A DNA stretch of 36,114 nt from Candidatus Saccharimonas sp. (GTDB lineage Bacteria > Patescibacteriota > Saccharimonadia > Saccharimonadales > Saccharimonadaceae): contig DZCW01000008.1 in NCBI GenBank assembly GCA_022736555.1, forward strand, positions 1 through 36,114, written 5' to 3'. The notes under the pieces were generated by a model. The model saw nothing but the letters and a program-made list of their open reading frames with translations, did no database searches and was not told the DNA's origin. Both the position numbers and the translations under genes were made by a program. Below are positions 30,842 to 36,114 of the stretch, one piece after another (position 1 is the first letter of the stretch; each line of letters opens with the position of its first letter).

Positions 30842-31828
30842 ATGTCCGAAAGAATAATTACCGAGATTCCGCCGAAGTTTAATATTTCGTCATTGTTTAA
30901 GCGGGTGGCCATCTATTGTCGCGTTAGCACCTATCATATTGCACAAGGAGAAAGCCTAAAAGCTCAAATCGACAGATATCAGAAAATGGTGGAAGATCGA
31001 TGTGACTGGATGTTAGTAAAAACCTATTCAGATACAGCCTCTGGCCGAAACACTACGGGACGCACTGAGTTTACGGACTTAATGAACGACTGCAAGAACG
31101 GGAAAATTGATTTAGTTATTACGAAATCAATTAGTCGGTTCGGACGTAACACTGTAGATATTCTGAGCAATATCCGCCAACTAAAGAAATATAACGTCGA
31201 TGTGTTTTTTGAGATTGAAAACATGCATACTTCGGACAGCAAATCAGAGCTTTTACTATCTTTCATTAGTGCAGTAGCTCAGGATGATAGTGCAGCTAAA
31301 AGTCATAATATAAGGGTTGGTATTGAATGCCAACTAAATAAAGGGACATCGAATCTTTACTCACGCCCATGTTATGGTTACAGAAAAGGCAAGAACGGTA
31401 ATCTAACCATAGATGAAATGTAAGCTAAAAACGTAAGGTATATTTTCGATCTCTATTTGCAGGGACATAGCGTAATTTCAATCATCAGGGAACTTAAAAA
31501 ACGTAGAATAAAGTCACCAAGTGGTAATACTGTCTGGTCAAAACGCGCAATCGAGACATTACTAGCCAATGAAAAATATGTCGGCGATGTTACTGTCGGC
31601 AAAACATTTAGGAATGAGTTTCCTAGCAATAAGCGTAGCGTTAATAACGGTGAGCGCAGAAAGTTTGAAATGACGAATTCTCACAAACCAATTATTCAGC
31701 GTGAAGTTTTTAATAAAGTGCAACAAGAACATAAGAAAAGAAGCAATATAGGGATAGATGCCGGGAAGGTTGTACGTAAGAATACGCGGTATAGTATGAA
31801 AAGTCTTGTAGTGGAGAAGGTTGCTTAG
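30842..31828 (+). pseudogene. Large serine recombinase, broken by in-frame TAA and truncated
   Basis: The N-terminal resolvase domain (193 aa) is intact, with catalytic S29 in IYCRVST, the EN...SRFGRN arginine region and an LKAQIDRYQ segment. A TAA at 31421-31423 follows IDEM, and the same frame continues AKNVRYIFDLYLQGHSVISIIRELKKRRIKSP, the recombinase domain, to SLVVEKVA and TAG. Large serine recombinases normally go on from there into a zinc ribbon (C..C...) and coiled coil; here the frame ends at the place the ribbon would begin. AAGG lies 6 nt before ATG 30842. An inactive remnant of an integrase or transposon recombinase is most likely. Confidence 0.75.
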
Positions 31829-33049: not shown

Positions 33050-33190
33050 TTATACATCATTACCTAAATTCCGCATATACTCTGCTGCTCTAATTTCACT
33101 TGCAGAGAATTCTCCAACTTTTTCAATTACCAAAGAGCTAGCCCTTGTCACCCACCCCCTTGCATATTTCTTTAAAATGCTTATACTAGT
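33050..33190 (-). pseudogene. Possible relic of a secreted-toxin C-terminal domain
   Basis: A 46-codon open frame without a normal start reads ...SLVIEKVGEFSASEIRAAEYM and ends RNLGNDV before TAA. The pattern SAxEIxAAxxMxxxGxxV is like the beginning of CdiA-type nuclease toxin tips as I remember them, where more than 60 further residues would follow; here they are missing. It overlaps the promoter of the next plus-strand gene. The similarity is from memory and unverified. The rest of the 32812-33199 gap has no gene I can support. Confidence 0.25.
33160..33187 (+). promoter_or_regulatory. Promoter of the surface-protein operon
   Basis: TTGCAT (33160-33165), 16 nt, TATACT (33182-33187), 12 nt before the ATG at 33200. 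Confidence 0.5.
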
Positions 33191-33199
33191 TTAGTGAGG

Positions 33200-33355
33200 A
33201 TGATACGTAGTAATAGTGTAGCGGTATGGGTTGCCAGTCTGTCATTATTGACAGCTGTTCTTGGTGTACTGCCATCTCTGTTGTTGTCTCTGTTAGATTT
33301 ATCCAAGTTCACATCGTCTTTTAATTCACAAAACATGGCAGGTAATATCCAATGA
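33200..33355 (+). CDS. 51-aa membrane peptide, coupled to surface protein
   Basis: A short frame MIRSNSVAVWVASLSLLTAV followed by a continued hydrophobic stretch to about residue 33 and a polar end SQNMAGNIQ. It is one membrane helix or a signal-like peptide. Its stop overlaps the start of the giant protein by 4 nt (ATGA, 33352-33355), so the two are very likely translated together. GAGG touches the ATG, too close for a normal ribosome-binding site. Not recognised. Confidence 0.55.
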   Translation: MIRSNSVAVWVASLSLLTAVLGVLPSLLLSLLDLSKFTSSFNSQNMAGNIQ

Positions 33356-36114
33356 AAAACCGTCGTGTCTTAGTCCCAGTCCTAGTCAGCTTAATCATCG
33401 GTTTATTCCTAATTATTGCCGTCGTTATCTTAGTCATCTTTACCGCTAGCCAAGCCAACAACGCTGTTGTCAATAGTGGTAATGTGACCAGTAGCTTACC
33501 TAAAACTTTAACCACCCTCCCAGTCGTCAAACAAGTCATCGGTGCTAACCTTGAAGTTACTGGTAATCTAAACACTCAAAGCATCATAACTGCAGACAAT
33601 ATCTCGGCTGACTCTATTACTGCCAAGAAAACCATCAAAGCTTCCAGCATTACCTTTGCCAAGACTAACGGTGCTACTGCCGCTAACCAGTTATACGTCA
33701 CAGCTGATGGTTCACTAAACTACTACGATGGTACTAAACGCACTAATCTAACCGACATTGCTAGTTCCGTCAGTCAACTACTAGCTTCAGCTGTTTCAGT
33801 CCAAAACGTTGGTGGTCTAACTGGTACAGTTTCCCTAGGTGCTGGTCTAACTGCTCAAAACGGTCAACTAACTAATAGCGGTGTAACTGGCATAGCTGGA
33901 TCAACTGGCAATATTACTCTAGGCACTGGCTTAGCTATGAACGGCAACACTCTAACTAGCACTGGTGTAACCAGTGTTGTTTCTGGTAGTTCAGACATCC
34001 TAGTCTCAACTGACGAAAATGGCATCGTAACTGTCAGTCAAGCTGGTTCAGGTGCTAGTGGTACAGTCGCTCTAGGCCCAGTTGCAGCCCAGGTTGACCC
34101 ATCAACCAACTCATCAATCTGGATCAACAAAACTGGTTCTGGTAACCTAATCCAACTATCTACTGGCGTATCCCCAGTTAACCGTTTCGTAGTTGACCAA
34201 ACTGGTGCCATCGTGACTGGTAGTATTAGCTTTAGCCAACTAACTAATATGCCAAGTATTACCAATACTATTGGTGGTGCTAGCGGTACCATCACATTAG
34301 GTAACGGTTTAACCGTAGTTGGTCAATCCCTCAGTAACAGCGGCGTACTAAGTGTCGGTGGTCTAACTAGTAACATCGGTTTAGGTAGTGGTCTAACTAT
34401 ATCTGGCAATAACATTGTCGCTACTGGTAGTGGTGTCGGTTCAGTTACTGGTACTCCTAACCAAGTCATCGTTAGTGGTAGCGGTGCCTTAACACTGTCC
34501 TTACCACAAGACATTGCTACTACTAGCAGCCCAACCTTCGCCGCCCTAACCCTCTCTACAGCCCTCCCAATCCTAAGTGGTGGTACAGGCGCCACTAACG
34601 CCACCGGAGCACGCACCAACCTAGGCGCCGCTGCTAGTGGAGCCAACAACGACATCACCAGTCTAACAGCCCTTACTACCATCACTTCACCTTCAGCCCT
34701 AACCATTGGCGCTACTACCCAAAGCCTAACCCTTCAAGGCTCATCAATATCTATTAGCGAACACTCAGGTTCCTTCACTAGCACATTAAGCCTAGTCGCT
34801 CCAACTGCTAACGTAACCTACCAACTACAAACTGCAGCTGCTGGTACCTACGATGTCTGTACGACAGCAGCTAACTGTGTCGGTATTGGTGGGGGAGTTA
34901 CAACTCCTGGTGGTACCATCGGTACACTATCCAAGTTCACCTCAGGCTCCGCCATTGGTGACAGCATCATCACAGATAACGGTACAACTGTATCTATAGC
35001 TGGAACATTAAGTGTTAATACTATTACACCAACTGCTGCAGCCATCATCGGTGCTACCACCCAAAGCCTAACTCTCCAAGGTGCCGCAACTACACTAACC
35101 AGCACATCAGGTAGCTACACCAACACCCTAAGCTTTACTACTCCATCAGGTAGCAATAAATCCATCGTTATACCAAACGCTAGTGGTACCATAGCAGTAT
35201 CTGCTGCCGGCCCACTAGCCATCGATGCCCTAGGCAATCTATCCTGTCCAACCTGTTTAACTACCGGCGGCAGCGGTGGATCAGCTGGTGTTTCCAGCGT
35301 TAACACTCAGACCGGTGCCATAACCATAGCCTCCATTACAGCCTCCAGCATCGTCACAAGCAGTGGTACCATTACCATCCAAGATGCCAGCTCCACAGTC
35401 AAAGGCTTAGCCTCATTTAACTCAACCAATTTAACTGTCACTAACGGGGCAGTTAACACTATCCAAGGTATCTCTACTACAGCATCTCCTACCTTCACAG
35501 GCTTGACCTTAACTAACGCTCTATCTGTCGCCAGTGGTGGTACTGGTCTAGGTAGTACGCCACTCTCTGGACAGCTACTAATTGGTAACGGTACCGATTA
35601 CACCCTAAATACTTTAACTGCTGGCTCAGGTATAACTATAGATAACTCCACTCCAGGTCAAATAACCATCAATGCTGCTGGTGGTAGTAGTTGTCCAACC
35701 TGTGCCAACCAAACTCTAGACAATCTAAACGCTGTAGCCATAAACACCAGCCTACTACCAGGTATAACTAACACTATTGATCTAGGCTCAGCCACTTATG
35801 CTTACCGTAACGGCTATGTAGCTGGAGTCTTCCAAACTGGTTCAATTGATGCCATCACTGCTGCAACCTTATCTATTGGTGCAACTAACGCTACAGCCAT
35901 CAGCCTAGAACAGAGCACAACAATAGCTGCTAACAAAAGCTTAACAGCTAACGGAAGCGCATTATTCCAAGATGCCACTAACTCTACTACGGCTTTCCAG
36001 ATACAGAATGCTACTGGAACATCTTATTTAACTGCGGATACGACAAATGGATCTATAGCTATTGGGAGTACGGCGTTTAGTACTACTGCTAGCTTTGCGA
36101 ATAAGGTGGATTAC
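33352..36114 (+). CDS. Giant phage-fibre-like surface protein, partial (3' end outside window)
   Basis: An open frame of 921 codons with no stop in the window. The N-terminus MKNRRVLVPVLVSLIIGLFL and further hydrophobic residues to about 33 form an anchor. The rest is Thr/Ser/Gly/Asn-rich and beta-strand-like. The segment LSGGTGATNATGARTNLGAA with nearby TTSSPTFAALTL is typical of phage tail fibres. TIGATTQSLTLQG recurs near 34704 and 35046, and SCPTC occurs twice. The coding strand favours C-ending codons (ACC, GCC, AAC, ATC), unlike nearby genes. A trimeric adhesin, possibly with an S74-type self-cleaving end outside the window, is the best guess. It follows a coupled membrane peptide. Confidence 0.8.
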   Translation, partial: MKNRRVLVPVLVSLIIGLFLIIAVVILVIFTASQANNAVVNSGNVTSSLPKTLTTLPVVKQVIGANLEVTGNLNTQSIITADNISADSITAKKTIKASSITFAKTNGATAANQLYVTADGSLNYYDGTKRTNLTDIASSVSQLLASAVSVQNVGGLTGTVSLGAGLTAQNGQLTNSGVTGIAGSTGNITLGTGLAMNGNTLTSTGVTSVVSGSSDILVSTDENGIVTVSQAGSGASGTVALGPVAAQVDPSTNSSIWINKTGSGNLIQLSTGVSPVNRFVVDQTGAIVTGSISFSQLTNMPSITNTIGGASGTITLGNGLTVVGQSLSNSGVLSVGGLTSNIGLGSGLTISGNNIVATGSGVGSVTGTPNQVIVSGSGALTLSLPQDIATTSSPTFAALTLSTALPILSGGTGATNATGARTNLGAAASGANNDITSLTALTTITSPSALTIGATTQSLTLQGSSISISEHSGSFTSTLSLVAPTANVTYQLQTAAAGTYDVCTTAANCVGIGGGVTTPGGTIGTLSKFTSGSAIGDSIITDNGTTVSIAGTLSVNTITPTAAAIIGATTQSLTLQGAATTLTSTSGSYTNTLSFTTPSGSNKSIVIPNASGTIAVSAAGPLAIDALGNLSCPTCLTTGGSGGSAGVSSVNTQTGAITIASITASSIVTSSGTITIQDASSTVKGLASFNSTNLTVTNGAVNTIQGISTTASPTFTGLTLTNALSVASGGTGLGSTPLSGQLLIGNGTDYTLNTLTAGSGITIDNSTPGQITINAAGGSSCPTCANQTLDNLNAVAINTSLLPGITNTIDLGSATYAYRNGYVAGVFQTGSIDAITAATLSIGATNATAISLEQSTTIAANKSLTANGSALFQDATNSTTAFQIQNATGTSYLTADTTNGSIAIGSTAFSTTASFANKVDY

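Follow-up and report, generated by a model that had tools for sequence, protein, structure and literature searches.

In mycoplasmas, F1-like ATPases can act on surface proteins, as in the gliding of Mycoplasma mobile and in the MIB-MIP system (PMC12994834, PMC11864180). The systems used here for comparison are the Type 2 (G1) ATPase of gliding and the Type 3 F1-like X0 ATPase of MIB-MIP (PMC12994834, PMC3369863, PMC11864180). The F1-like X0 ATPase has been called mycoplasma specific (PMC12994834). Genes of an F-type ATP synthase are present in nearly all Patescibacteria despite the lack of a respiratory chain (PMC11665869), and they have been reported to be dispensable in one species (PMC10633639). 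The same paper presents VCBS-type surface proteins as host-interaction factors of Saccharibacteria, with SEML1_0891 being essential on the host. The means by which ultrasmall epibionts attach to their hosts and act on them are still poorly understood, and a search of the open-licence literature returned no publication on F1-like ATPases in Saccharibacteria.

Here, we analyzed a window of 36,114 nucleotides from Candidatus Saccharimonas sp. that ends within a very long gene. The window is the whole of contig C8 (positions 1-36114), one of the nine contigs of a 692,521-bp genome that is 96.6% complete. We consider it probable that the window carries the 5′ third or so of the gene of a giant membrane-anchored fibre, a paralogue of a fibre that contig C2 of this genome encodes at the end of an F1-like ATPase operon. 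Of wider interest is the locus itself, which brings together an F1-like ATPase, a c-like protein with an ectodomain, and a fibre.

RESULTS

A giant gene at the end of the contig

The features of this region are collected in Table 1. The 921-codon frame reported in an earlier note is present, and it is incomplete only because the contig stops at its last position. The tail-fibre-type motif, the repeat spacing of about 114 residues, the two SCPTC motifs and the hydrophobic N-terminal anchor that the same note had described were all located in it. Its statement that codon use differs from that of the neighbours also holds, with G-ending codons making up 2.9% of six four-fold boxes in the giant, versus 14-25% in the window neighbours and 14% in the atpD-like gene of the same genome. 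Codon use changes in a sharp step within the gene, from about 2% G-ending codons in 33352-35750 to 12.7% after approximately 35750, i.e., in the last ~360 bp.

No Pfam, PHROG or NCBIfam family spans the 921 residues. The frame is more than a chance one, since the C2 paralogue is conserved at the DNA and frame levels and homologues of another genus keep the architecture. The FG-GAP array found in the paralogue is represented in the window by its first four residues. Farther upstream, at 30842-31423 and 31457-31828, the resolvase and recombinase parts of a large serine recombinase lie in separate frames, which suggests a mobile-element gene that has been broken.

Table 1. Features of the giant gene and its upstream region, in window coordinates
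Feature	Position	Strand	Remarks
TATACT, possible -10 element	33182..33187	+	read by eye
51-codon frame, ATG start, hydrophobic N-terminus	33200..33355	+	reads as truncated paralogue of the 266-aa partner
55-bp exact repeat	33231..33285	+	equals the end of contig C4; assembly k-mer breakpoint
ATGA stop-start overlap, peptide/giant	33352..33355	+	
5′ part (921 codons) of the giant surface fibre gene	33352-36114	+	open at 3′ end
N-terminal membrane anchor, residues 4-32, hydrophobic (RRVLVPVLVSLIIGLFLIIAVVILVIF)	33361..33447	+	sequence; aligned with four other-genus giants
Conserved beta-rich neck (KQVIGANLEVTGN ... LYVTADGSLNYYDG)	33523..33756	+	kin to mini-fibre stalk base (hhalign)
GGTGATNATGARTNLGAA motif, residues 410-427 of the giant	34579..34632	+	
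Two blocks carrying IGATTQSLTLQG, residues 452 and 566, spacing 114	34705..35082	+	
SCPTC motif no. 1, residue 631	35242..35256	+	CPTC or CASC in relatives at the same site
SCPTC motif no. 2, residue 780 of the giant	35689..35703	+	
KVDY, opening residues of the C2-type FG-GAP array; contig end	36103..36114	+	C2 paralogue comparison

Giants at F1-like ATPase operons

We searched 394 genomes of the GTDB family with a profile built from the N-terminal part of the giants, without regard to synteny, and obtained matches in five: our genome and four of another genus (Ca. Saccharibacteria 47-87, 49-20, NP70 and UBA8109). In all five, the gene of a 256-266-aa protein closes an F1-like operon, and a giant gene starts 1 nt after it or overlaps it by 4 nt. 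Operon-linked giants are thus no farther than 4 nt from the gene of a putative secreted c-subunit-like membrane protein, hereafter the partner. In our genome this arrangement is on C2, where the giant overlaps the 266-aa protein gene by ATGA, preceded by genes for b-like, delta, alpha, gamma, beta and epsilon F1 subunits. The window copy has no adjoining ATPase. Homologues of the partner were found in 73/394 genomes, and an N-terminus search at the genus level returned our genome and one weak match, a mini-fibre (see below) beside an F1-like operon.

The giant family combines a constant N-terminal anchor and neck with a long repeat stalk, and those operon-linked giants whose 3′ end is available finish in a small tip with a predicted fold resembling phage fibres and H-type lectins. 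Where complete, the other-genus giants measure about 3,090-3,170 aa. Their GGTG motifs recur mostly every 134 residues, and two of them gave no Pfam match to FG-GAP. An 11,043-aa open frame in genome G084 was discarded, being a run of masked N.

Near F1-like operons without giants, we observed large signal-peptide proteins with an early NFQGRL or GFQGRL (L064:11660-14773, L066:1-2280, L068:7449-9383), possibly another fibre family of this locus. A Saccharibacteria-type F1-like operon was also seen on a contig labelled Chlamydiae (L079, CAJCIR010000038.1), probably a binning error.

The F1-like ATPase

Our genome has a single alpha/beta pair, that of the C2 operon. Both subunits were identified, with scores under the NCBIfam equivalog cut-offs: 440 against 463 for beta and 379 against 484 for alpha. 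No a subunit (PF00119) was detected at E<=1 in this 96.6% complete genome, and no PF00137 match to a c subunit above the cut-off. In the four giant-bearing relatives and most other genomes with the 266-aa family, a canonical a subunit is encoded elsewhere, for instance ~164 kb from the partner gene in G129. At least two alpha/beta pairs are present in most of 12 tested genomes, G013 having the F1-like pair only. In a tree, the F1-like betas form one clade (98/88), with long branches present, apart from the canonical betas of the same genomes. The C2-type F1-like ATPase is a separate ATPase and not a displaced ATP synthase. Genomes G129 and G075 have three alpha/beta pairs each, and therefore some Saccharibacteria possess more than one F1-like ATPase. 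The b-like subunit (L059:2-667; L079:7386-8021; L083:7399-8034) is barely recognized by family models; it starts with a hydrophobic stretch, followed by a long helical body.

The c-like partner

The partner is not recognized by Pfam or NCBIfam, and a PDB sequence search with its profile yielded nothing useful. We modelled it with AlphaFold2 from 26 homologues (pLDDT 82). Following a signal-like helix, the model has a beta ectodomain and then a pair of long helices, 193-227 and 229-263, with the break at an invariant GRNP. In fold comparisons of this predicted model, the ectodomain resembles the C-terminal domain of phi29 gp12 (Z 12.0) and phage capsid decoration proteins (Z 9-12 overall). The hairpin resembles ATP-synthase c subunits (Z about 10), of which the closest (6n2d, 9itj, 9itt) superpose with an rmsd of 1.3-1.8 A over 69-72 residues at 21-23% identity. 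Helical hairpins match easily by fold. The predicted hairpin has the fold of the ATP-synthase c-subunit hairpin, with an RNP/RQP loop. Homology at the sequence level is only suggestive, the profile alignment with c subunits being weak (hhalign probability 18-30%, P about 1e-3). None of 26 partners has an acid at the ion-binding site (GRNP+18), which is L, I, V or F, versus D in the canonical c subunits of these bacteria (GRNPEKLxDIRTLMITAIVFADSLAIIG).

Mini-fibres and the fibre tip

In related Saccharibacteria devoid of giants, a mini-fibre of ~300-350 aa, composed of an anchor, a beta stalk and a tip, adjoins the F1-like operon in divergent or convergent orientation. Its anchor and stalk align with the giant N-terminus (hhalign probability 96%, P 2.9e-9), and a profile of its tip recognizes those of four giants, three of them at E 8e-25 to 5.8e-28 and g201 at 4.5e-21. 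Mini-fibres with the giant-type tip are found beside the F1-like operon in seven more genomes. As mini-fibres share both the anchor and the tip, the giants are best read as mini-fibres with a grown stalk, that is, as enlarged copies of the fibre of the F1-like ATPase locus. Growth would have involved GGTG repeats, mostly of 134 residues, in the other genus and FG-GAP propeller repeats in our genome.

The model of the fibre tip (pLDDT 86) resembles tailspike LKA1 (Z 7.6), Helix agglutinin (Z 6.8) and R-pyocin fibre tips, with Z scores in the range of 6-7.6, all below 8. Two uncultured phage proteins are 37-42% identical to the tip (E about 1e-9), and the C2 tip gave a weak match to the H-lectin family PF09458, at E 0.16. 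The earlier note had proposed a host-attachment fibre. Our data support that the giant of this episymbiont lineage is anchored in the membrane and fibre-like, with parts of the phage-fibre type, and host attachment stays our best guess because the C2 tip is modelled with a tailspike, R-pyocin and H-type-lectin fold.

Possible roles of the fibre and the ATPase

The fibre would project from the cell, tip outward, and may bind glycans on the host bacterium. At the C2-type locus, the F1-like ATPase has no a subunit, and its acid-free c-like protein would form a ring bearing ectodomains. As the most speculative step, suggested by synteny and fold only, this ATPase might spend ATP on moving, tensioning or assembling the fibre. 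The window gene would provide an additional fibre, which may share the C2-type base or work passively. Taken to its end, this scheme describes a pump-less rotary machine derived from ATP synthase, in which the F1-like motor would turn the c-like ring, and the outward ectodomains would act on the phage-tipped fibre. We regard such a machine as possible but doubtful. If it exists, it would convert epibiont ATP into force on the host surface, with the window gene coding for a second, giant fibre. Proton pumping by the C2-type ATPase is unlikely, since the genome has neither an a subunit nor an acid-bearing c subunit.

The giants may also be plain host-adhesion fibres, with an F1-like ATPase that pumps, regulates or powers something else and has no mechanical link to them. 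The position of the window copy, apart from any ATPase, fits this explanation, as does the involvement of VCBS-type proteins in Saccharibacteria host interaction, exemplified by SEML1_0891 (PMC10633639). However, it accounts poorly for the 5/5 linkage across two genera at a spacing of 4 nt or less, for the same-tip mini-fibres beside the F1-like operon in the seven more genomes, and for the lack of an a subunit and of an acid-bearing c in our genome. Plain adhesion is thus a tentative explanation that we would not favour. A giant membrane-anchored fibre, paralogous to that of an ATPase operon, is the reading retained below.

Paralogous giants on other contigs

The giant of contig C2 (16.6 kb) is on the minus strand, from ~7677 to 69 (L006:69-7677; ~2,535 codons). 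Its identity to the window giant is 68% for the N-terminus, 78% for the stalk and 74% at the DNA level, where the indels of the compared stretch are multiples of three with one exception. Some 20 FG-GAP repeats (FG-GAP_3 in Pfam, E 7e-86 and 3e-103) precede its small C-terminal lectin/tail-fibre-like tip. The FG-GAP array and tip of the window giant are predicted from this paralogue and may differ. The C2 gene is broken by several single-base indels or frameshifts and a stop, which could reflect a recent pseudogene, a strain mixture or an assembly error.

A single orphan 3′ giant end is present, at the start of contig C4 (L018:2-1435). Its tip is unlike that of C2 and carries the signature WEWTDGW...RGGSWDLG...FGFRVAR, reminiscent of FGE-sulfatases and C-type lectins, with a sub-threshold match to PF03781 (0.017); a search of the whole genome for PF03781 was negative, and a PDB sequence search with this tip gave nothing useful. 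The signature also recalls target proteins of retroelements. A diversity-generating retroelement was rejected, the similarity being a resemblance only: no reverse transcriptase was found in the genome, and the PF03781 match is sub-threshold. The S74 domain gave no Pfam match in the C2, C4 and two other-genus giants, the window giant being incomplete at its 3′ end. Several contig ends of the genome share exact 55-bp stretches, and the contig breaks therefore look like k-mer repeat breaks.

Such a set of paralogues raises the possibility that the window holds a donor copy, silent or decaying, and that giants recombine among the copies at the ends of C8, C2 and C4 to swap tips. The presence of paralogous 5′ as well as 3′ ends, the latter with two types of tip, the frameshifts of C2, the identical 55-bp stretch and a partner shrunk to 51 aa would all agree with this. 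Against it, no break interrupts the window frame in its 921 codons, and a codon use that differs from that of the neighbours would fit expression. We consider a donor role unlikely and keep to an additional fibre.

The 51-aa peptide

A peptide gene precedes the giant in the window, and the 4-nt ATGA overlap between the two, reported in the earlier note, was confirmed. Its possible -10 element is absent from the list of a consensus promoter scan because of a weak -35, and GCTTATACT was also found, by eye, upstream of the paralogous units of C4 and C2. The first 30 residues match the signal-peptide region of the 266-aa protein of the same genome with a local score of 53, compared with 16-30 for 25 other members of the partner family, and the DNA score of the peptide against the partner was reached by 0/2000 codon shuffles. 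The peptide retains the signal-peptide part and is devoid of the ectodomain and hairpin. No convincing alignment supported derivation of its C-terminal part by internal deletion of the partner. As the match is confined to the signal-peptide region, the peptide is best read, from these alignments, as a shortened paralogue or leftover of the c-like partner. It may now act chiefly as a short leader, its translation being coupled to initiation on the giant.

The earlier note had seen in it a dedicated partner for insertion or export of the giant, an idea to which the ATGA overlap, the hydrophobicity of the peptide and a second copy of its start, in a preserved frame at the end of contig C4, lend some weight. 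In relatives, however, the peptide-fibre pair is not kept: 0/5 homologous giants (four genomes and the C2 paralogue) have the peptide, and the 256-266-aa c-like protein is found in its place. Moreover, the peptide matches only the signal peptide of that protein, and the giant has an anchor of its own, making an export helper quite improbable.

The question of a phage origin

Despite motifs of the tail-fibre type and a tip related to uncultured phage proteins, a prophage or tailocin tail fibre is hardly credible and was rejected: the giant has an N-terminal membrane anchor; no relatives of its N-terminus and stalk were present in 50,697 phage records, nor any match to the N-terminus in 2.9 million viral contigs; its window neighbours are chromosomal and largely housekeeping (class II tRNA synthetase, Mur ligase, ABC transporter, DivIC, split serine recombinase, NYN) and form no virion morphogenesis cluster; and its relatives lie in ATPase operons.

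DISCUSSION

The fibre locus of Saccharibacteria has counterparts in several known systems. The predicted fold of its tip resembles those of phage tailspike and R-pyocin tips and of H-type lectins such as Helix pomatia agglutinin and discoidin II. Unlike those, it is borne by a bacterial fibre with a membrane anchor, at the far end of a stalk in which our genome has FG-GAP repeats. SEML1_0891 of Ca. Southlakia epibionticum likewise has propeller-type repeats on a surface protein of host-dependent Saccharibacteria; unlike for the operon-linked giants, no link to an ATPase appears in the accessible part of that report (PMC10633639).

The partner resembles the F-type c subunit (PF00137) by its predicted helical hairpin with a (G/A)R(N/Q)P loop and an expected outside/inside/outside topology. 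It differs from it by a signal peptide, an ectodomain of ~130-150 residues and the lack of the ion-binding acid. The fold predicted for the ectodomain is shared with the C-terminal domain of phi29 gp12 and phage decoration proteins; unlike phi29 gp12, it is predicted to be tethered to the membrane and is encoded in a cellular ATPase operon.

Closest in overall design are the Type 2 (G1) and Type 3 ATPases of mycoplasma gliding and MIB-MIP, which also associate an F1-like complex derived from ATP synthase with a membrane part of its own and are also tied to large surface proteins that touch the host. Unlike them, the Saccharibacteria locus keeps b-like, delta and epsilon subunits. Its membrane part would be a c-like hairpin with an ectodomain, whereas that of the mycoplasma X0 is described as a 12-TM plus 2-TM pair, and its surface protein is a beta-fibre. 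The beta subunit of our genome scores 406 with the MSC_0618 model, 356 with MMOB1670 and 440 with the general atpD model. As the F1 sequences are nearer to the general atpD and atpA models than to the mycoplasma ones, the mycoplasma ATPases serve as an analogy, and the locus is not a member of their families. The conserved locus combines an F1-like ATPase that lacks an a subunit, a c-like protein whose predicted ectodomain is of the phage type, and a phage-tipped fibre. As such, it would represent a concrete, testable surface machine, parallel to the gliding and MIB-MIP ATPases and outside mycoplasmas.
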